Assembly: GCF_000378245.1 (NCBI RefSeq)
Contig: NZ_KB899493.1
Coordinates: 248,001 to 312,000 of the forward strand
From: Aromatoleum toluclasticum ATCC 700605
GTDB taxonomy: Bacteria > Pseudomonadota > Gammaproteobacteria > Burkholderiales > Rhodocyclaceae
Direction: 5' to 3'
DNA length: 64,000 bases
In this document: piece by piece, positions 11,048 through 43,402 of the stretch
Numbering within the stretch: position 1 is the first letter of the stretch
Layout: every line of letters starts with the position of its first letter
Notes under the pieces: generated by a model
Databases searched by the model: none
What the model saw: only the letters and a program-made list of their open reading frames with translations
Told to the model about the DNA's origin: nothing
Translations under genes and position numbers: made by a program

Positions 11048-13973
11048 GGCGTTTCACTTTCCTGGAGGATCCTGCTGTTTCGTTGTTCGTTTCGGCCGCT
11101 GCGGGCTTCTTCGCCCGAGGTGCCTTCGCCGCTTTCACGGCCTTGACCTCTTTCCCGGGCGAGACGTCGCCCGCATCTTCCGCAGTCTTGGGCGCCGTTG
11201 CCGTCACCGTCTTCGCGGCCTTCACCGCTTTCGCTGCCTTAGACCCGCTCGGCGCCGGCGCAGGCACGGACGCCGCCTTCGCGCCCTTCTTCGCCCGCGC
11301 GACGGGCTTGACCGCTTCCGCCGGAGCCGGCCCAACGGCCTTCACCGCGTTCGCGCGCTTTCCGGCGCCGGCAGCCTTCACTTCCGGAGGCGCTTTCGCA
11401 GCCTGCTTCGCCTGCTTCGCCTGCTTCGCCTTCGCCGCCGTCGCGTCGGCCTTGTCCGCGACATCCGTATGCACCGGGCGAGCCGCGGGCTTGGGGGCCG
11501 CCTTCCCGGCCTTTTTCGCGCCCTCTGCCTTTGCCGGCTTCACCGCCACGGGACGTTCATCGACGGTCGGCGCTTCAGCCACAGCCACCGTTGCCTTGGC
11601 CTTCACGGCCTTGCGAGCGCCTGAAGAGGCCCTGGACTTGCCCGTCTTCTCCGCCGGCTCGATCACCACCGCTGCCGCGACGACGGCCTCCGGGGCCTTC
11701 GCCCCCTTGTCCTTCGCAGTCTTGCCTGCCCGCTCGGTCGCCCGCTGCGCGCCTTCGATCAGCCGGAAGTCGATCTTGCTCGTCTCGAGATCCACCCGGA
11801 CGACCTGCACGCGCACGCGATCCGACAGGCGGTGGCGCACGCTGGTGCGCTCGCCGGCAAGCTCGTGGCGCGTCTCGTCGAAGTGGAAATAATCGCTGCC
11901 GAGGTCCGAAATATGGACCAGCCCTTCGATGAAAATGTCGTCGAGGGCGACGAAGAGGCCGAAGGGTACCACCGCCGACACGCTGCCGGAAAACTCCGCA
12001 CCGACCTTGTCCTGCATGTAATAGCACTTCAGCCACGCGACGACATCGCGCGTCGCGTCGTCCGCGCGCCGCTCGGTCGACGAGCAGTGCAGGCCGATCG
12101 CATCCCAGTCGCCGGCCGCGTAGAGACGGTTCTCCAGCGCCGCCTTGATCGAACGATGCACCAGCAGGTCGGGATAGCGGCGGATCGGCGACGTGAAGTG
12201 GGTGTAGGCCTCGTACGCCAGGCCGAAGTGCCCGACGTTGTCCGGGCTATACACCGCCTGGCGCAGCGAGCGCAGCATCACCGTCTGCAGCAGTTGCGCG
12301 TCCGGCCGGTCCTTGACCTTCTCCAGCAGCTTCGCGTAGTCGCCCGCCTTCGGATCGTCACCTCCGCCGACGCCGAGCCCGAACTCCGCGAGGAAGCCGC
12401 GCAGCTTTTCCAGCTTCTCCGGCGTCGGGCCCTCATGCACGCGGTACAAGGCCGGGTGTTCGCGTTCCTGCAGGAATTCCGACGCACACACGTTCGCAGC
12501 GAGCATGCACTCCTCGATCAGGCGGTGCGCGTCGTTGCGCACCTCGGGCACGATGCGGTCGATCTTGCCCGTGTCGTCGAAGATCATGCGCGTCTCGGTC
12601 GTCTCGAAATCGATCGCACCGCGCTTCGCGCGCGCCTTCAGCAGTACGCGGAACAGCTTGTCGAGGTTTTCCAGGTGCGGCAGCAACGCGCCGACCGTAT
12701 CCAGCGCGGCCTTGTCCTTGTCGTACAGGGCCGCCGCGACCTGGTTGTAGGTCAGGCGGGCGTGCGAGAACATCACCGCCGGGTAAAAGCGGTAGGCCTT
12801 GATTTCCCCCGTCGGGCCGATGCTCATGTCGCACACCATGCACAGGCGCTCGACCTGCGGGTTGAGCGAACACAGGCCGTTGCTCAGCTTCTCGGGCAGC
12901 ATGGGGATCACGCGCCGCGGGAAATACACCGAATTGCCGCGATCCTGGGATTCCACGTCCAGCGCACTGCCCGGCTGCACATAGTGCGACACATCGGCGA
13001 TCGCGACGATCAGGCGGTAGCCGCGTCCCTGCCGCTCGCAATACACCGCGTCGTCGAAATCCTTCGCCGTTTCGCCGTCTATCGTCACGAGCGGCAGCTT
13101 CGTGATGTCCTCGCGCCCCGCCCAGTCCTTCCTGCGCACGGCGGCCGGCAGCTTGCGCGTCTCGGCCTTCGCCTCGGAAGAGAACTCGAACGGCAGCTCG
13201 TGCTTGCGCAGGGCGATCTCGATTTCCATGCCCGGATCCGCGTAGTTGCCGAGCACCTCGATCACGCGGCCGATCGGTTGCGCGAACTTGGTCGGTTGTT
13301 CGATCAGCTCGACGGTGACGACCTGGCCCGGCAAGGCCTTCTTGCCCCCCGGCGCCACCAAGATGTCCTGCGCGATACGCCGGTTCTCCGGTACGACCAC
13401 CTGCACCCCATGCTCGTTCAGCACGCGGCCGACGATGCGCGTGTTTGCGCGCTCCAGCACCTCCACGACCTTGCCCTCGGGACGGCCGCGACGGTCGAGG
13501 CCCGTGATGCGGACGATCACGCGATCGCCGTGCAGCACCTCGCGCATCTCCTTCGGACCGAGGAACACGTCGGGCTGAGCGTCGTCGCGGATCAGGAAAC
13601 CGAAACCGTCCGCATGTCCCGACACGCGCCCGCGAATCAGATCGGCCTTGTTCGGCAGCAGGTAGGCATCGCGCCGGTTGCGCAACAGCTCGCCGTCGCG
13701 CTGCATCGCGCGCAGGCGACGCTCGAAGAGTCCCGCTTCGTCCGGACTCACGTCGAGCGCGGCGCACAGCTCCTGCAAACTCATGGGCACGCCCTGCTCG
13801 GCGAGCGTCTGTTGGACGTATTCCCGACTCGGCAGGGGGTGATCGTACGTGGCGGACTCCCGCTCGTAGAACGGATCGGCACTGCGGACGGGGCTGGGTT
13901 TGCGTTGGCTGCCACCTGCTGCGGCCTTGGGCGTTTTCCCTTTTTCTTTTTTCATTGTTTTACTCGTTGACAT
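11040..13973 (-). CDS. rnr: Ribonuclease R
   Basis: The 977-residue 3'-5' exoribonuclease has an N-terminal winged helix (about 50-110), cold-shock OB domains, and a catalytic RNB domain with DGETAKDFDDAVYCE near residue 300 and RYPDLLVHRSIKAAL. An S1 domain (SGSVSAVVPFGLFVALDD) starts near 658. From about residue 745 to the end the protein is a very long Lys/Ala/Pro-rich tail, longer than the short basic tail of E. coli RNase R. Start uncertain: ATG at 13973 overlaps the -35 box of the divergent tRNA gene, and ATG at 13955 (MKKEKGKTPK) is an alternative. Neither has a strong ribosome site. Confidence 0.95.
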   Translation of the reverse strand: MSTSKTMKKEKGKTPKAAAGGSQRKPSPVRSADPFYERESATYDHPLPSREYVQQTLAEQGVPMSLQELCAALDVSPDEAGLFERRLRAMQRDGELLRNRRDAYLLPNKADLIRGRVSGHADGFGFLIRDDAQPDVFLGPKEMREVLHGDRVIVRITGLDRRGRPEGKVVEVLERANTRIVGRVLNEHGVQVVVPENRRIAQDILVAPGGKKALPGQVVTVELIEQPTKFAQPIGRVIEVLGNYADPGMEIEIALRKHELPFEFSSEAKAETRKLPAAVRRKDWAGREDITKLPLVTIDGETAKDFDDAVYCERQGRGYRLIVAIADVSHYVQPGSALDVESQDRGNSVYFPRRVIPMLPEKLSNGLCSLNPQVERLCMVCDMSIGPTGEIKAYRFYPAVMFSHARLTYNQVAAALYDKDKAALDTVGALLPHLENLDKLFRVLLKARAKRGAIDFETTETRMIFDDTGKIDRIVPEVRNDAHRLIEECMLAANVCASEFLQEREHPALYRVHEGPTPEKLEKLRGFLAEFGLGVGGGDDPKAGDYAKLLEKVKDRPDAQLLQTVMLRSLRQAVYSPDNVGHFGLAYEAYTHFTSPIRRYPDLLVHRSIKAALENRLYAAGDWDAIGLHCSSTERRADDATRDVVAWLKCYYMQDKVGAEFSGSVSAVVPFGLFVALDDIFIEGLVHISDLGSDYFHFDETRHELAGERTSVRHRLSDRVRVQVVRVDLETSKIDFRLIEGAQRATERAGKTAKDKGAKAPEAVVAAAVVIEPAEKTGKSRASSGARKAVKAKATVAVAEAPTVDERPVAVKPAKAEGAKKAGKAAPKPAARPVHTDVADKADATAAKAKQAKQAKQAAKAPPEVKAAGAGKRANAVKAVGPAPAEAVKPVARAKKGAKAASVPAPAPSGSKAAKAVKAAKTVTATAPKTAEDAGDVSPGKEVKAVKAAKAPRAKKPAAAETNNETAGSSRKVKRRG

Positions 13974-30329: not shown

Positions 30330-31982
<1,653 letters not shown>

Positions 31983-32044: not shown

Positions 32045-32614
32045 TTAGACGGGGCGGTTGTCCGCGACCTTGACCGGTCCCATCTCGGCGAGCGCCTGCG
32101 CGTACTCGACGCGCGGGAAGCCGCCGCCGATTTTCGCGGCGGCGTCGACGATGACGTCGATCTTGGCTTCCGGGGACATCTTCTTGAGGTCGCCCTTTTC
32201 GAGGTACAGCAGGTCGAGGAGCTCGTTGTAGACGGTCGCCTCGTCGAGCGGCAGGACGTGGAAGCTGACGCCGTCGAGGTCGAGCAGGTATTTCTTCGAG
32301 ATGTCGACGTTGCCGGCGAAGATGAAATACTTGCCCGCCGGGACGAGCGCGGCACCGAAGGTGGCGCGGACTTCGTCGAGGTGGGCGAGCGAATCGACGT
32401 GCAGGGCGAGGAAGCTCACGGCTTCGCCTTCGACGGCGAGGATGACCTGGTCGGCCTTGATCTCGGGGGGACGCTTTTCACCGGCGAGCGAGGGCGGGAA
32501 CTTGAGGCCAAGTTCGCCGCGGAAGCCGTAGCGGGCGGTCTTGCCGGTGGGGCCGGAGAAGGTGGGTGACAGGAGCTTGCCGTCGAGGGCGCTGAACAGG
32601 GTCGGCGTGGTCAT
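32045..32614 (-). CDS. Uncharacterised protein, predicted NifA/sigma-54-controlled
   Basis: The 189-residue protein is not recognised. It starts MTTPTLFSALDGKLLSPTFS and has no signal peptide, membrane helix or cysteine. Alternating hydrophobic stretches (ADQVILAVEGEAVSFLALHV; KYFIFAGNVDISKKYLLDL) suggest an alpha/beta soluble protein; the last third looks helical. It is divergent from nifB. A sigma-54 promoter (32665-32680, minus strand) lies 51 nt before the start, and the only NifA site in the gap (32825-32840) is palindromic and can serve both directions. This predicts co-expression with nitrogenase. With no cysteine it is unlikely to hold an Fe-S cluster alone. A role in nitrogenase cofactor assembly or protection is a guess. 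Confidence 0.8.
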   Translation of the reverse strand: MTTPTLFSALDGKLLSPTFSGPTGKTARYGFRGELGLKFPPSLAGEKRPPEIKADQVILAVEGEAVSFLALHVDSLAHLDEVRATFGAALVPAGKYFIFAGNVDISKKYLLDLDGVSFHVLPLDEATVYNELLDLLYLEKGDLKKMSPEAKIDVIVDAAAKIGGGFPRVEYAQALAEMGPVKVADNRPV

Positions 32615-32664
32615 GTTGGATCTCTCGTGCAGTGACAGTGGGTAAGGCGGTTCAGCCACCTTTC

Positions 32665-32680
32665 CGCAAGAAGTGCGCCA
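32665..32680 (-). promoter_or_regulatory. Sigma-54 promoter of the uncharacterised gene
   Basis: The minus strand reads TGGCGC-ACTTC-TTGCG (GG-N10-GC), 145 bp from the NifA site. Confidence 0.65.
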
Positions 32681-32824
32681 CGGCGCTGGGCGAGGTCGGG
32701 GCCGGCACGCAAGGCCTTGTCTTGTCTGGCCTTTCCGCGCCCGGACGACGGTTTGCGCGTGCGGCGCGCGGGCTGCTGCAACGACGGCGCAGGGACGACA
32801 TTCCGGACATCGACGCGACATTGC

Positions 32825-32840
32825 TGTCGCAGATGCGACA
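32825..32840. promoter_or_regulatory. NifA upstream activator sequence, shared by divergent genes
   Basis: TGT-CGCAGATGCG-ACA, a full TGT-N10-ACA site and a near-perfect palindrome. It is the only such site between the uncharacterised gene and nifB, 70 bp from the nifB -24 box. Confidence 0.8.
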
Positions 32841-32909: not shown

Positions 32910-32925
32910 TGGCACAGGCATTGCA
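32910..32925 (+). promoter_or_regulatory. Sigma-54 promoter of nifB
   Basis: TGGCAC-AGGCA-TTGCA, a perfect -24/-12 consensus. The start codon lies about 77 nt downstream. Confidence 0.88.
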
Positions 32926-33001
32926 GTGATCCCCGCAGACGCTGCGCGGCGTGCATTCGCGCCGTTGCGGCCTGATGGACCACTGCGAAGGGAGTTCCCC
33001 C

Positions 33002-34504
33002 ATGTCACCGCAAGGCCTCGTTGTGCCCGAAACCCCTGCCCGCAAGATCATTCCGCTCGCCGTCGCGGGAACGGCCGCGTCGCGCGCGGGCGGCTGCGGC
33101 ACCGCGACCAAGGGCGGCTGCGGGTCGGGCAGTTCCGCCGGATTGCCGCAGCATGTGCGCGACCGCGTCCACGACCATCCCTGTTACAGCGCGGAGGCGC
33201 ACCACCACTTCGCGCGCATGCACGTGGCGGTGGCGCCGGGCTGCAACATCCAGTGCAACTACTGCAACCGCAAGTACGACTGTGCGAACGAGAGCCGGCC
33301 GGGCGTCGTATCGGAAAAACTGACGCCTGAGCTGGCGGCGAAGAAGGTGCTCGCGGTGGCCGCGCAGATTCCGCAGCTGTCGGTGGTGGGCGTGGCGGGT
33401 CCGGGCGATGCACTGGCGCTGCCGGAGAAGACGTTCCGCACCTTCGAGCTGATCCGGAAGGCCGCGCCCGACATCCGGCTGTGTCTGTCGACGAACGGGC
33501 TGGCCCTGCCCGATCACGTCGATCGCATCAAGGCGCTGGGCGTGGACCACGTGACGATCACGATCAACATGATCGATCCGGAGGTCGGCGCACTGATCTA
33601 TCCGTGGATCTTCTTCGAACACAAGCGCCGGCGCGGGCTGGAGGCGGCGCGCATCCTGCATGAACGGCAGATGCAGGGACTGGAGATGCTGGTGGCGGCC
33701 GATGTGCTGGTGAAGGTCAATTCCGTGATGATCCCGGGGATCAACGACCGCCATCTCGCCGAGGTGAACGCGGCGGTGAAGTCGCGCGGCGCCTTCCTGC
33801 ACAACATCATGCCGCTGATCTCGGACCCGGCGCACGGCACGCATTTCGGCCTGACGGGGCAGCGCGGGCCGACGCCGGCGGAGCTGAAGGCGCTACAGGA
33901 TGCGTGCGAGGGCGAGATGCAGATGATGCGTCACTGCCGCCAGTGCCGCGCCGATGCGGTGGGGATGCTGGGCGAGGATCGCGGCGCGGAGTTCACGTCG
34001 CAGAACATCGACGCGATCGCGGCCGGGGTCGATGCGGCGGCGGTTGCCGAGTCGCGTGCGGCCTATCGCAGCTTCGTCGAGCGCGAGCGCGCGGACCAGA
34101 GCGATGCGGCGGAGGCGGCGCGGGCGCAGCTCGGGACAACGGCCGAGACGCGGCTGGTGGCGGTCGCGACCAAGGGGTCAGGGCGGATCAACCAGCATTT
34201 CGGCCACGCCGAGGAGTTCCAGGTGTACGAGGTGTCGGCCGCGGGCGCGAAGTTCGTCGGTCATCGCAAGGTATCGCTGTACTGCCAGGGCGGTTACGAC
34301 GATGACGAGGCGCTGCCTGGGATCGTCGAAGCGCTGGCCGGCTGTGGCGCGGTGTTCGTCGCGAAAATCGGCCACTGTCCGCGCAAGGATCTCGCGGCGG
34401 CGGGCATCGCCGCGGTCGAGGACTATGCGCATGAATACATCGAGGCTTCGCTGATCGACTGGTTCGCGAAGTCGGTCGCGGGCGCCGCCGACATCGCAGC
34501 CTGA
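33002..34504 (+). CDS. nifB: Nitrogenase cofactor biosynthesis protein NifB
   Basis: The product has 500 residues. The N-terminal radical SAM domain has [15 protein letters not shown] near residue 80, plus the further conserved cysteines and histidines that bind the K-cluster units ([28 protein letters not shown]). A C-terminal NifX-like domain (about 380-490) follows: [20 protein letters not shown]. NifB makes NifB-co, the 8Fe-9S-C core of FeMo-co. The ATG at 33002 has AGGGAG at a suitable distance. It heads a nifB-hesB-nifZ-nifT operon under NifA. Confidence 0.97.
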
Positions 34505-34517
34505 AGGAGGATCGAAC

Positions 34518-34910
34518 ATGTGCGTGACCCTGACCCCCACCGCCGCCAGCTTCATCAAGCGCATCGTGCGCCTGAGTGGCGGCAACGCCGACAGCGGCTT
34601 CAGGCTGTCCGTGAAACCCGGCGGCTGCTCCGGCTTCGATTCGAACTTCACGGTCGAAGCCGCACCGGCCGACGGTGACGCAGTGATCGAACAGCTCGGC
34701 GCGCGCCTGTTCCTGACCGGAGACAGTTGTGCGCTGCTGCGCGGTTACACGGTCGATTTCACCGAGAACAGCGCCGACAGCCGGCTGAGTTACCGCAGGG
34801 AGGGCGCGCCGGAGGTCTGTGGCTGCGGGTCCGGCGCCGGCCCCCGGGCGGCGGGCGAGGCGGTCGCGGTGACGTTCTTCAAGCCCGGCACCGGCTGCAC
34901 GAAGGGATAG
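34518..34910 (+). CDS. HesB/IscA-family Fe-S carrier in the nif operon
   Basis: The product has 130 residues. IscA-like features: VKPGGCSGFDSNF with the first ligand cysteine (near residue 37) and the C-terminal VCGCGSG pair. There is an extra tail of about 25 residues beyond the usual IscA end, with one more cysteine (GTGCTKG). It has a strong ribosome site (AAGGAGG) and follows nifB by 13 bp. It probably supplies or carries Fe-S clusters for nitrogenase assembly, a role inferred from family and position. Confidence 0.88.
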   Translation: MCVTLTPTAASFIKRIVRLSGGNADSGFRLSVKPGGCSGFDSNFTVEAAPADGDAVIEQLGARLFLTGDSCALLRGYTVDFTENSADSRLSYRREGAPEVCGCGSGAGPRAAGEAVAVTFFKPGTGCTKG

Positions 34911-34919
34911 GAGGCGATC

Positions 34920-35252
34920 ATGTCCGCACGCGACTCCGACATCGTCGAACTCGACGGGCCGCCGGCCTTCGATTACGGCGAGAAGGTCATCTCGCGGAAG
35001 AACGTCAGGAACGACGGCACCTTCCACGGCCGCGAGATCGGTGACGTGCTGGTGAACAAGGGCGATGTCGGCTACGTGAAGAGCATCGGCAGCTTCCTGC
35101 AGCAGTTCTACATCTACGGCATCGACTTCGTCGACCGGGGCTACGTGGTGGGCATGAAGGGGCGCGAACTGCGCTCGCTCGATGCACCCTCCTCGGGCAC
35201 CTGCGGCGAGGACGAAGCGATCCATTTCGACGAAGAGGAAACGATGCGATGA
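34920..35252 (+). CDS. nifZ: Nitrogen fixation protein NifZ
   Basis: The 110-residue protein shows the NifZ family core FDYGEKVISRKNVRNDGTF, LVNKGDVGYVKSIGSFLQQF and GYVVGMKGRELRSL. NifZ helps mature the P-clusters of the MoFe protein. It lies 9 bp after the HesB-like gene, and nifT overlaps its end by 4 bp (ATGA). Confidence 0.93.
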   Translation: MSARDSDIVELDGPPAFDYGEKVISRKNVRNDGTFHGREIGDVLVNKGDVGYVKSIGSFLQQFYIYGIDFVDRGYVVGMKGRELRSLDAPSSGTCGEDEAIHFDEEETMR

Positions 35253-35489: not shown

Positions 35490-38400
35490 TCAGTCGCCGT
35501 CGAACGACAAGGCCCGGCCGGCCGCCAGCAGCGCCGCGTACTCGGCCGCCGGCACCGGCCGGCTGAACAGGAATCCCTGCATCTCGTCGCACGCGTTGGC
35601 GCGCAGGAAATCGAGCTGCGGGCGCGTTTCGACGCCCTCTGCGACCACCGTCAGATCCAGGCTGTGGGCGAGCCCGATGACCGCGCGGCAGATCGCCGCA
35701 TCTTCGGGGTCGCTCGCGATGTCGCGCACGAAGGCGCGATCGATCTTCAGCTGGTCGATGGGAAAGCGCTTGAGATAGGCGAGGCTCGAATAGCCGGTGC
35801 CGAAATCGTCGAGCGCGATGCAGATGCCGATCGTGTTGAGCTCGCGCAGCATCGCAATCGCCCGGTCGACGTCGTGCATGACCGTGCTTTCGGTGATCTC
35901 GAGTTGCAGGCAGTGCGGGTCGAGGCCGGCCGCCGCCAGGGCAGCGTGCACCGTCTGCGGCAGATTCTCCTGGCGGAACTGGCGGGCCGAGAGGTTGACC
36001 GCGACGGGCGGCACGGCGAGCCCCTCGGCGATCCAGGCAGCCTGCTGACGACAGGTTTCGCGCAGCACCCATTCGCCGAGCGGCACGATCAGCCCGGTAT
36101 CCTCGGCGACGGGGATGAAGTCGGCCGGCGAGACCATGCCGCGCTCGGGATGTTGCCAGCGGACCAGGGCCTCGGCGCTGGTCACCCGGCCATCGCCCAG
36201 GCTGACCTTGGGCTGGTAGAACACCCGCATCTCGCCCTTGTCGATCGCGCTCCGCAGCGCGCTGGCCAGCGCGAGCTGCGCGGTGACCCGCTGGTTCATC
36301 TCCGGCGAGTAGAAGCGGAAGGCGTTGCCGCCCGCGGTCTTGGCGTTGTGCATGGCGATGTCGGCGAATCCGAGCAGGGCTTCGGCGTCCTGTCCGTCGC
36401 GCGGGAAAAGGCTAATACCGAGACTTGCAGTCGAGTACACCCCGTGGCCGGCGATATCGAGCGGCGCAGCGACATCCTCGAGCAGCCGCCCCACCAGCGG
36501 CGCGACATCCGCGACGGCGGCAAGGTCGTCCAGCAGGATCGCGAATTCGTCGCTGACCAGGCGCGCGACGGTATCCCCGTTGCGCAGCGGCCCCTGCACG
36601 CGGCGTGCGGTCTCCTTGAGCAGAGTGTCGCCGCGGGCCTGGCCCAAGGTGTCGTTGATGGCCTTGAAGCGATCGAGGTCGAGCAGCACGACCGCAACCG
36701 CCCTCCCGTTGCGCCGGGCATGTACCAGCGCCTGATCGAGGCGGTCACGGAACAGGTGGCGGTTGGCGAGCCCGGTGAGCGTGTCGTAGTGCGCCTGGTG
36801 GGCGAGCTCGCGTTCGGCGCGCTGGCGCGCATCGCGCTCGCGCAGGCTGCGCAGGCCGTAGGCCAGGTCGTTGGCGAGTTCCTCGAGCAGGGCCACCTCC
36901 TGCAGGTCGAAGGCGTCACGCTCGCTGGCGTAGATGTTGAGCGCGCCGACCGTTCGTCCGGCCGCAGTCAGCGGCAGTGCGATGCTCGAGGTGAAGCCGC
37001 GGCGCAGCGCCTCGGCACGCCACGGCGCATAGGCCGGGTCGCCGGGGATGTCGATGCAGGTTTGCGTGGTGCCCAGCCGGATCGCACGGCCCGTCGGCCC
37101 CTGGCCCGAGGGGACGTCCGCCCAGCTCACGTCGAGCGTGCGCAGGTAGTCCGCGCCCACGCCCGCAGCAGCCGCGGGGTGCACCGAACGGGCGGGATCG
37201 TCGAGCGCAAGGCCGACCCATGCCAGCCGGTAGCCGCCATGTTCGACGATGTGGCCACAGACGGTTTCGAGCAACTCCCCCTCATCCTGCGCACGCACCA
37301 GCGTTTCATTGCACAAGGTGAGCATGCGCAGGGTACGGTTCAGGCGGCGCAGCTCGTTCTCGGCACGCACCTGCGCCGAGATGTCGCGCACGGCGGCGAT
37401 GACCTGCGTCGCGCCGTCATGCGCCATGACGGCCCTGCTGATGTCGGCCGGGAACTCGCTGCCGTCGCGCCGCCGCGCGAAGATGCCGGGGCGGCGCATG
37501 CCGATCACATCGGAATGCGGCGTCCGGTGATAGTCCGAACGCTGGTCCGAATGTTGTGCCCGGAAACGTTCGGGCACGAGAACCTCGACCGTCTGGCCGA
37601 GCAGGTCGCTGCGCGGGTAGCCGAACAGCATCTCGGTGCGCGCGTTGACCATCGTGATGCGACCGGCGGCGTCGGTGATGACGATGCCGTCGGCGGCCGA
37701 CTCGAGGATGCTGCGGAAACGCTCCTCGCTGGCGCGCAGGGTGCGTTCCGCCTGGCTGCGTTCATCGACTTCGCGCAGCAGCGCCGCGTTGCTGGAGGCC
37801 AGTTCGGTGCTGCGCTGCGCTTCGCGCCGCTGCGCCGCCTGCAAGGCTCCGGCCATGTCGTTGAGGGCGACGTTGAGCGTCGCGAACTCGTCGCCGCCGT
37901 CGCTGCGCAGGCGCACACCGAGATCGCCCGCCGCCAGGCGCTGCGCGAAGGTCATCGTCTGCCCGATCGAGCGCCGGATGCTGCGCGAGAAGAAATATCC
38001 GATGGCCAGGCCGAGCGCGGCCGCAAGCGCTGCGATCATGAGCAGGGCCGTGCCGGCGAAGTGTTCGAAGCCCAGCAGCTCCTCGCGTGTGCTTGTAGCG
38101 CGGCCGCTCGCATGGGCGTGCAGGCGCTGCAACTGCGACTCGATTTCATGCACCGCCTCGAGATACTTCTCGCGGGTCGTCTCGAGCTCGTCGCGGACCG
38201 CTACGTAGGCCAAGAAGGCCTCTCGATAGTCGTGCAGCGCAACGGCGAACGCGCTGCGCAACGCGGCCGGCAGGGACTCGCCTGCGACCGCGACGGCAAA
38301 GCGCTCGCCCGCATCAGCGAAACGCCGGGCGTGGAGCGCGCTGTCGGTGATCATGTAATCCTTCTCGAACCGCCGCATCGCGAACAGATCCGCGCGCAAC

Positions 38401-38951
38401 CGATGCGCTCCGGCAGGAATCAGCGCCTCGATGCGGTGCGCGGCCGCGCGCAGCGTACCGGCCAGGCCGTCGTCACGGCGGCCGAGCTGCCCCTGCAGCG
38501 CGGCCGCAGCGAGGAATTCCTTCTCGAAGCCGATGGCAGCAGCCTCGATCTGCCGCACTTCGTTCCGCACGTCGGCTTCGCGCGCGAGCGCCCCGATCGC
38601 CGCCACATGCTCGCGCAGCGTCTCGAGGTTGGTGCGCACGAGCGTCACATAGCGCGAGCGGCTCTCCTCATAGCCCAGCACGGGCACCGCAAGCAGAAAG
38701 TCCTTCTCGTAGCGGCGCGCCCGGAGCAGCGCATGATTGGCGAGCAGGCTCAGTTCGGCGATCCTCAGTTCGACCGCGAAGTGTTCCTCGAACAGCGTCC
38801 CGATCCGGCGATGGCTGGCCAGCGAGGCGATTCCGACAGCCAGGGTGATTGCCACCAGCAGCGCGAAGCCTATCCTCAGGCGCGCACCGAGGCTCAGCTG
38901 GGCTAACGTCCCGGGCAGGGAGCCGCCGCGTCCGGGGAGCTTGCTCGCCAT
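35490..38951 (-). CDS. Membrane GGDEF-EAL protein with PAS and GAF domains, probable c-di-GMP phosphodiesterase
   Basis: The product has 1153 residues. Membrane helix about 26-45; periplasmic helical sensor to about 300; second helix (FAGTALLMIAALAAALGLAIGYF); HAMP about 325-380; PAS about 410-530 (SAADGIVITDAAGRITMVNA); GAF about 550-690; GGDEF about 710-870; EAL about 885-1140. The cyclase motif is degenerate (LVSDEF instead of GGDEF). The EAL domain keeps EALVRW, NLSARQF, ITES, DDFGTGYSSLAYL, KIDRAFV and VVAEGVET, so it should hydrolyse c-di-GMP. It follows a periplasmic binding protein gene by 4 bp, which may provide the ligand signal. It lies between nifT and draG but shows no nif promoter. 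Confidence 0.92.
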   Translation of the reverse strand: MASKLPGRGGSLPGTLAQLSLGARLRIGFALLVAITLAVGIASLASHRRIGTLFEEHFAVELRIAELSLLANHALLRARRYEKDFLLAVPVLGYEESRSRYVTLVRTNLETLREHVAAIGALAREADVRNEVRQIEAAAIGFEKEFLAAAALQGQLGRRDDGLAGTLRAAAHRIEALIPAGAHRLRADLFAMRRFEKDYMITDSALHARRFADAGERFAVAVAGESLPAALRSAFAVALHDYREAFLAYVAVRDELETTREKYLEAVHEIESQLQRLHAHASGRATSTREELLGFEHFAGTALLMIAALAAALGLAIGYFFSRSIRRSIGQTMTFAQRLAAGDLGVRLRSDGGDEFATLNVALNDMAGALQAAQRREAQRSTELASSNAALLREVDERSQAERTLRASEERFRSILESAADGIVITDAAGRITMVNARTEMLFGYPRSDLLGQTVEVLVPERFRAQHSDQRSDYHRTPHSDVIGMRRPGIFARRRDGSEFPADISRAVMAHDGATQVIAAVRDISAQVRAENELRRLNRTLRMLTLCNETLVRAQDEGELLETVCGHIVEHGGYRLAWVGLALDDPARSVHPAAAAGVGADYLRTLDVSWADVPSGQGPTGRAIRLGTTQTCIDIPGDPAYAPWRAEALRRGFTSSIALPLTAAGRTVGALNIYASERDAFDLQEVALLEELANDLAYGLRSLRERDARQRAERELAHQAHYDTLTGLANRHLFRDRLDQALVHARRNGRAVAVVLLDLDRFKAINDTLGQARGDTLLKETARRVQGPLRNGDTVARLVSDEFAILLDDLAAVADVAPLVGRLLEDVAAPLDIAGHGVYSTASLGISLFPRDGQDAEALLGFADIAMHNAKTAGGNAFRFYSPEMNQRVTAQLALASALRSAIDKGEMRVFYQPKVSLGDGRVTSAEALVRWQHPERGMVSPADFIPVAEDTGLIVPLGEWVLRETCRQQAAWIAEGLAVPPVAVNLSARQFRQENLPQTVHAALAAAGLDPHCLQLEITESTVMHDVDRAIAMLRELNTIGICIALDDFGTGYSSLAYLKRFPIDQLKIDRAFVRDIASDPEDAAICRAVIGLAHSLDLTVVAEGVETRPQLDFLRANACDEMQGFLFSRPVPAAEYAALLAAGRALSFDGD

Positions 38952-41003: not shown

Positions 41004-41833
41004 AAGGTCGCCATCCTGACACGATACTCGCCGCCGAGCACGAGCATCTCGCCCTCCCCGCGCAGCAGCGGGCCCGGCATCAGGGCGTTGCAGTAGACGA
41101 GCTTGCACAGCGGCACCTCGACTTCGAGGATGGTGTCGCCGAACTGGTCGGCGATGTCGCGCCGTGTCGTGAACGAGACAAGGTTGTTCTGCCGCGCGAT
41201 GGCCTCGCGCGCGCGGCCGGGCCTGCCGTCCGTGCGCGGCAGCCAGGCGACGACCTGGTGCTCGCCGAAGTCGTTCACGCCGCGGTACAGCGTGAGGTGG
41301 CGGCGGCCGGGATACAGCCAGCGCCGGAACATGTGTTGGGCGTATTCGTACAGCAGGTCGAGCTGCGCATGGATGCAGTTGTTGTGGAAGCGCGCGTGCA
41401 TCTTGTCCTCGACGTAGGCCATCCACGCTGCGGACGGGTAGCGGCCGAGCACCTCCTTGTGGAAGGTGGGGTGCAGGCCGAAGCGCGACTCCGCCCAGCC
41501 CTTGAGCACCGCAGCTTCGCGGCCGCTGGCGTCGAAGCCCCAGCCGCGCAGCAGGCGCAGATAGCTCGCGCGGTAGCGCTTGCGGCCGGCGGCGTCGTGT
41601 TCGCGCGGCAGGTCCAGCTCGAACACCGTGCGCATGTAGATCTGGAAGGCGAGCACCGCCTCGTCGACCGTGGTCGCATCGTCGAGCATCGCGAACAGCG
41701 TGCCGTTGGTTTCCCGCACGCCGTGGATGTGCAGCGCGAGCGGATGGTCGCTGAACGCGACGCTCGCAATCAGGCCCGTCGGGATGCCGACGAGGTTGGT
41801 CGAGTGGCCGGCGACGGCGCGCGTTTCAGTAAT
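41000..41833 (-). CDS. draT: NAD(+)--dinitrogen-reductase ADP-D-ribosyltransferase DraT
   Basis: The product has about 277 residues. It inactivates NifH by ADP-ribosylating its arginine when ammonium rises or energy falls. The DraT core is clear (NNCIHAQLDLLYEYAQHMF, LTLYRGVNDFGEHQ, NNLVSFTTRRDIADQFGD). The first ATG/GTG/TTG in frame is a GTG at 41719, but the conserved DraT start GHSTNLVGIPTGLIAS is encoded upstream of it. The frame there has no ATG, GTG or TTG back to a stop. An ATT at 41831-41833, overlapping the fmdB-like stop (ATTACTGA), would give an N-terminus of normal length, so an ATT start is proposed. A sequencing error is the alternative. Confidence 0.9.
   Translation of the reverse strand: MTETRAVAGHSTNLVGIPTGLIASVAFSDHPLALHIHGVRETNGTLFAMLDDATTVDEAVLAFQIYMRTVFELDLPREHDAAGRKRYRASYLRLLRGWGFDASGREAAVLKGWAESRFGLHPTFHKEVLGRYPSAAWMAYVEDKMHARFHNNCIHAQLDLLYEYAQHMFRRWLYPGRRHLTLYRGVNDFGEHQVVAWLPRTDGRPGRAREAIARQNNLVSFTTRRDIADQFGDTILEVEVPLCKLVYCNALMPGPLLRGEGEMLVLGGEYRVRMATL

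Positions 41834-42124: not shown

Positions 42125-43402
<1,278 letters not shown>

Follow-up and report, generated by a model that had tools for sequence, protein, structure and literature searches.

An unnamed protein family almost confined to nifB-containing genomes among sampled Pseudomonadota appears to carry its own NifA/sigma-54 promoter

The 64,000-nucleotide stretch of Aromatoleum toluclasticum ATCC 700605 analysed here (contig NZ_KB899493.1, positions 248,001 to 312,000; hereafter the window) contains, between nifA and nifB, a gene encoding a 189-residue protein, here called gene X, which belongs to a family without a name. Sequence statistics and the published expression of relatives support that this family is dedicated to diazotrophs and controlled by NifA; as far as sampled, X appears to be dedicated to nitrogen fixation and not universal in it. 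The family is a new one of a known kind, the NifA-controlled accessory proteins; it has an unusual tail and lacks a recognised fold, and its genes are known from rows in published tables. For the molecular function we infer, with about an even chance of being right, a nitrogenase-dedicated, metal-free accessory protein that would act by protein contact and use its tail as a docking signal. Oxygen protection, Clp-type turnover, a part in the DraT switch and an enzymatic role are ranked below this reading.

Three samples, all taken from the Pseudomonadota, were searched for X and nifB (TIGR01290): 150 genomes at the level of the family, 369 at the level of the class and 398 at the level of the phylum. 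The family sample contains 33 genomes with X and 65 with nifB, and 32 show both; the corresponding numbers are 11, 32 and 11 in the class sample and 13, 43 and 13 in the phylum sample (Fisher p 2e-13, 3e-13 and 4e-14, respectively). Among genomes showing no nifB match, X is found in 1/85, 0/337 and 0/355, and homologues are therefore not common in non-diazotrophs; since scoring in the class and phylum samples was limited to at most eight or nine first-look candidates per genome for X and four for nifB, absences of either gene are lower-bound statements. X was searched with alignment A2 in the family sample and with alignment A3 in the other two, and nifB was counted at E <= 1e-60, 63 of the 65 matches in the family sample being above the curated cut-off. 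The three samples, each of which includes the window's own genome, contain 55 distinct genomes with X, 54 of them with nifB. The exception (G089) is a genome that is 79% complete, and its X shows both promoter elements described below. The phylogenetic profile thus places X almost exclusively in nifB genomes in all three samples. The original prediction had named X as a candidate for an undescribed nitrogen-fixation component: the near-confinement to diazotrophs and the unplaced family support this, and the lack of X in half to two thirds of the nifB genomes restricts it to part of the diazotrophs. A link to NifB size is seen in the phylum sample only, where X is present in 13 of the 23 genomes whose NifB match reaches at least 599 bits and in none of the 20 below; this link is not relied on because the cut was chosen afterwards, and one genome of the family sample (G109) has X with a partial NifB match of 531 bits.

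In the window, gene X shows a sigma-54 (-24/-12) promoter at 32665-32680 on the minus strand (TGGCGCACTTCTTGCG), which is the GG-N10-GC element that had been predicted to point at it and which matches 9 of the 11 consensus letters. The sigma-54 promoter of nifB, at 32910-32925 on the plus strand (TGGCACAGGCATTGCA), is perfect (11/11). A NifA upstream activator site (UAS) common to X and nifB is located at 32825-32840 (TGTCGCAGATGCGACA), a TGT-N10-ACA palindrome with 7-bp perfect arms, about 145 bp from the sigma-54 site of X and 70 bp from that of nifB; as foreseen, it is the sole TGT-N10-ACA of the X-nifB gap. Expected numbers, here and below, come from dinucleotide shuffles. Neither promoter element of X is rare by itself: the whole window contains eight TGT-N10-ACA sites versus 4.8 expected, and 208 sigma-54-like sites with up to three mismatches versus 235 expected, the site of X having two mismatches. 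They stand above chance because they are conserved and not because they are individually rare: the UAS and both promoters are kept in four of five aligned Aromatoleum-type relatives, and the gap differs in A. evansii. This last locus (L002) contains an ORF (open reading frame) of 492 codons between nifB and X, and the X genes of A. evansii and of A. toluolicum show their own, different sigma-54 site and UAS; the A. evansii arrangement can be read as a natural test, which suggests that the NifA-type promoter stays with X.

The same association is found across 69 loci of the family. A good sigma-54 site aimed at X is present within 400 bp upstream in 39/69 loci (3.3 expected) and a TGT-N10-ACA in 32/69 (3.2 expected); a sigma-54 site lies 25-110 bp ahead of the start in 44/69 (4.27 expected), and both elements, in order, precede X in 30/69 (0.08 expected), ratios that overstate the number of separate events because the loci are related and not all independent by descent. 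The association extends to 17 loci in which seven ORFs around X include no core nif gene: 14 show the sigma-54 site (0.94 expected) and seven show both elements (0.00 expected). These are 17 of the 19 contexts of this kind; in some of them, genes resembling NifZ, SIR2 or hemerythrin, none of which is on the core nif list, lie near X. The remaining loci have no sigma-54 site directly ahead of X; where X comes after other genes, as in some of these loci, its transcription may start farther upstream. The set omits three duplicates (L019-L021), three loci (L013, L071 and L074) that lacked upstream sequence or had been retrieved in another way, and second or weak X matches of four genomes (G011, G094, G122 and G060); it includes one locus (L063) with only 93 bp of upstream sequence, and in the class and phylum loci the start of the match was used as the start codon. 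Judged from these sequences, the NifA/sigma-54 promoter goes along with gene X.

Published tables, of which parts were available, indicate that relatives of X are strongly NifA-dependent. Paraburkholderia phymatum has two X genes, one beside each of its two nifH genes: Bphy_7752, assigned to the family by sequence, and its twin Bphy_7807, assigned by identity to Bphy_7752 in 199 of 202 residues. In nifA-mutant nodules they show log2 fold changes (log2FC) of -11.54 and -11.11, respectively, compared with -10.05 for nifD, -9.83 for nifB and -7.40 for nifH, although the near identity of the two copies makes their separate read counts uncertain (PMC8305402). Both are the largest numeric drops in the available portion of Table 1 of that work, in which genes without mutant reads carry no number (PMC8305402). 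The gene bll1754 of Bradyrhizobium diazoefficiens is assigned to X by gene order only, that is, by its place and orientation between the Rieske-like blr1753 and blr1755. Its value is -4.8 in nodules of the nifA mutant, and none is listed in the column for the nifH mutant (PMC4926349). Under microoxia its protein reaches a log2FC of 6.2, comparable to NifD (6.0) and NifE (6.2), and in bacteroids its transcript is raised 120.9-fold (PMC6515984). In the tables available, these X-like genes, expressed with nitrogenase, are known only as rows labelled 'hypothetical protein' (PMC8305402, PMC4926349, PMC6515984). The predicted expression of X with nitrogenase is therefore borne out by published data for its relatives, and these data do not extend to A. 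toluclasticum itself (PMC8305402, PMC4926349, PMC6515984).

Gene X is located at 32045-32614 on the minus strand, with an ATG at 32614 and a TAA at 32045-32047, in agreement with the 189-residue frame proposed earlier; nifA is a convergent neighbour. A longer version in the program-made ORF list (273 aa) begins at an upstream TTG. The ATG is probably the better start, because a Shine-Dalgarno-like GAGAGA, read from the sequence at 32621-32626 (minus strand), lies 6 nt ahead of it, homology starts there and the sigma-54 site lies between both starts. The protein ends in ...EMGPVKVADNRPV-COOH and contains no cysteine, as had been stated before, and the conserved positions of the family are likewise free of cysteine. 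The gene is under purifying selection, with a ratio of nonsynonymous to synonymous substitution rates (dN/dS) of 0.07-0.14 versus five Aromatoleum-type relatives and about 0.3 versus Azospira.

Searches of Pfam, NCBIfam and PHROG show no match to X above the cut-off (none of the Pfam families at E <= 10), and PDB sequences searched with X and with a 56-row profile show no convincing match, so that the claim that X fits no family holds. Ten diverse relatives likewise match no Pfam or NCBIfam family above the cut-off, none of the ten matches a nif family at E <= 1, the PHROG search included one relative besides X, and a pattern search of viral contigs gave no relative. The following matches were discarded as chance: NCBIfam ArgT (E 0.005, 16 of the 440 bits of its cut-off), NCBIfam NanR (E 0.027) and PDB lysine/arginine/ornithine-binding proteins (E 0.23 and above). 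In the parts consulted of an open-licence library, which leaves subscription journals mostly outside, no name or function for the family was found. By tblastn and profile searches, relatives are found in genera that include Aromatoleum, Azospira, Oryzomicrobium and Sulfuricella, and on plasmids of Paraburkholderia, Cupriavidus, Bradyrhizobium and Methylococcus. None of the libraries searched contains a profile for this family, which is common to Aromatoleum, Azospira and these four genera and often has its own NifA promoter. A tree of 62 members shows, with a midpoint root, two clades of 32 and 30 members (support 1.0).

AlphaFold predicts X as a compact domain. Models of one member per clade have a predicted local distance difference test (pLDDT) score of 93.2 and 93.8 and the same order of elements, and both clades are predicted to consist of one confidently modelled alpha/beta domain followed by a flexible tail, whose pLDDT of 59 and 46 in the two models predicts disorder. 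The first structure prediction used 56 of the 62 aligned sequences. Despite the confident model, the fold search gave weak hits only, and neither a fold nor a convincing profile relative of X was found. Several of these weak hits are nucleases (McrC, EcoT38I, BbvCI and Can2), and the 62-row alignment contains three invariant residues (R32, G33 and K144) and four nearly invariant ones (N102, E131, K140 and K151). Both observations would fit an enzyme, metabolic or acting on nucleic acids, that the nif regulon has recruited, a reading held to be very unlikely. The catalytic acid and E-x-K that the PD-(D/E)XK nuclease superfamily has on its central strands are not found among the conserved columns, and E131, K140, K144 and K151 are placed by the model in the C-terminal helices.

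The C-terminal end [R/G]-[P/A]-[V/I/L]-COOH is present in 76/76 members (the 62 aligned and 14 further ones). In one genome (G060; L122, around 11430-11930) the X gene is split over two frames, by a true frameshift or a sequencing error, and its end is still HGAI. The proposed accessory protein would be made alongside nitrogenase and, having no cysteine in its sequence or among the conserved positions, would carry no metal; like NifW, NifZ or NafY, it would bind to a component of nitrogenase or to a maturation factor and so stabilise it or assist in assembly, and the free carboxyl end of its tail would be inserted into the bound protein. This proposal draws on the expression of relatives with nitrogenase, on the lack of a conserved metal ligand and on the confinement of the family, as far as sampled, to diazotrophs. 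NifW and NifZ are similar to X in being small, in lying in nif clusters and in occurring in only part of the diazotrophs, and NifW partly overlaps X; they differ in that X and the ten relatives match neither family in Pfam or NCBIfam and in that no relative was detected for the fold of X. A bolder version, which is considered rather unlikely, is that X founds a novel class of factors for nitrogenase biogenesis, with a new fold, and that its disordered C-terminal end would be an address label for a single conserved partner, which could be a subunit of nitrogenase, a maturase or an unfoldase of the Clp type. If true, diazotrophic Proteobacteria would assemble or turn over nitrogenase with the help of a hitherto undescribed system of C-terminal signals. 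The common tail and the confidently predicted domain make the function of X readily testable, and which accessory proteins nitrogenase needs in respiring fixers is a practical question for transferring nitrogen fixation to other hosts.

The same tail could instead be read by a Clp-type AAA+ unfoldase, X either delivering Nif proteins to it or being removed when fixation stops. In A. vinelandii, ClpX2 reportedly controls NifB and NifEN. The tail that bears the conserved end is predicted to be disordered, three loci from a single genus have a ClpA-like AAA gene immediately before X (identified by Pfam in L085 and by BLAST label in L086 and L124), and clpX, clpP and lon are present on the Methylococcus nif plasmid. 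Recognition signals of ClpX at protein termini are established, according to the part of the source available (PMC5415555). However, the sigma-54 site for X is located between the two genes in the ClpA-like loci, a Clp gene is nearby in few of the X contexts shown, and the tail would be equally conserved for any partner that receives a C-terminus in a pocket; this explanation is regarded as quite unlikely.

Several points weigh against the preferred reading, an accessory protein of nitrogenase, in addition to the uncertain read counts of the P. phymatum copies. X is not found in 33/65, 21/32 and 30/43 of the nifB genomes (family, class and phylum sample, respectively), and nitrogenase as such therefore does not need it. 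In the available parts of the sources, bll1754 is not flagged as a target of NifA and RpoN1 (PMC6515984), the RpoN-motif list of P. phymatum names nifE, nifV, nifB, nifH1 and nifH2 and not Bphy_7752 (PMC5979394), and transposon sequencing (Tn-Seq) of A. olearius, a strain that may or may not contain X, names many depleted nif genes and none like X (PMC9769520). The overlap with NifW is weak (9/13 nifB genomes with X versus 10/30 without it, p 0.046), and the conserved E131, K140, K144 and K151 could also mark an enzyme.

A core nif gene lies within seven ORFs in 55 of the 74 X contexts. These were obtained with a simple ORF finder and labelled by BLAST, and close relatives as well as overlapping records are among them; the finder missed a DRAT gene in L106 that a separate DRAT search found. 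X is divergent from nifHDK (for example in L075, L079 and L096), from nifB (in the window, L004 and L011) or from hesB-nifS (L112 and L129), and in L081 it follows a PPIC-type, NifM-like gene. nifB is present twice in one genome (G011; L076 and L119), which also has two X genes, one per tail type. In P. phymatum, the second nifH and its near-identical divergent X (Bphy_7807/7808) are located at 581506-583435 of NC_010627.1 (L116) and form a duplicated nifH-X unit.

Some neighbours suggest that X might help to shield nitrogenase from oxygen, with a purpose like that of the Shethna FeSII protein. They include a group II truncated haemoglobin, a Rieske gene and, directly downstream of X in L080, L089, L091 and L122, a hemerythrin (PF01814 in L080), with any of which X would act. 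Such neighbours are, however, not constant beside X, and no metal or haem ligand is conserved in it. COX1 is present in 42 of the 43 nifB genomes of the phylum sample and the one without it (G518) has X, so that oxygen use does not separate genomes with X from those without. Oxygen protection is accordingly judged unlikely.

A nif-linked order SIR2_2 - X - hemerythrin recurs in five loci (L084, L089, L091, L080 and L122), in the first three of them behind DRAT; the third gene is not labelled hemerythrin in L084, and DRAT is followed by a GGDEF gene in L091. A nifT-DegT-SIR2-2Fe2S group of Paraburkholderia and Methylococcus is another recurrent setting of a SIR2-like protein. X could thus be imagined as a partner in the reversible ADP-ribosylation of the Fe protein, together with the SIR2-like protein. 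The complete order DRAT - SIR2_2 - X - hemerythrin in L089, its counterpart in L091 with a response-regulator/GGDEF gene after DRAT, and, in G745, a distance of about 50 bp (measured between match edges) from X to a downstream DRAT would agree with this. Against it, DRAT is present in 7/13 nifB genomes with X and in 20/30 without (p 0.50), and the six X genomes showing no DRAT match include two (G544 and G700) with the gene order of Bradyrhizobium. A dependence of X on draT was rejected because of these six unmatched genomes, and participation in the switch seems highly improbable. The draT/hemerythrin operons of Azoarcus-type bacteria resemble the contexts of some X genes of the distant clade, which lie between SIR2-like and hemerythrin genes and in part behind draT, but differ in that X is not dependent on draT. 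In the part of the source available, azo0536 of A. olearius lies between draT and dcrH1 (PMC8467165); it is suspected to be X.

In the window, the proteins encoded next to X, which were part of the BLAST label set under names assigned in this analysis, were checked against annotated proteins alone. nifA (30330-31982, plus strand) shows 49% identity to annotated NifA across 561 columns (E 2e-176). nifB (33002-34504, plus strand) has an ATG start in frame with a longer ORF (32951-34504), matches TIGR01290 with 652 bits, above the curated cut-off, and shows 67% identity to annotated NifB. Downstream of nifB are a HesB/IscA-type gene (34518-34910, plus strand), with 45% identity to an annotated iron-sulfur assembly protein (E 2e-24), and nifZ (34920-35252, plus strand), with 66% identity to annotated NifZ (E 2e-41). 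The window also contains nifH (42542-43366) and a DRAT gene (41015-41800), which places gene X in a nif region. Beside the nifB-hesB-nifZ group, positions 35490-38951 encode a 1153-aa protein that, read from its sequence alone, resembles a GGDEF/EAL-type signalling protein, and response-regulator/GGDEF-like ORFs are found near X in several other genomes too.
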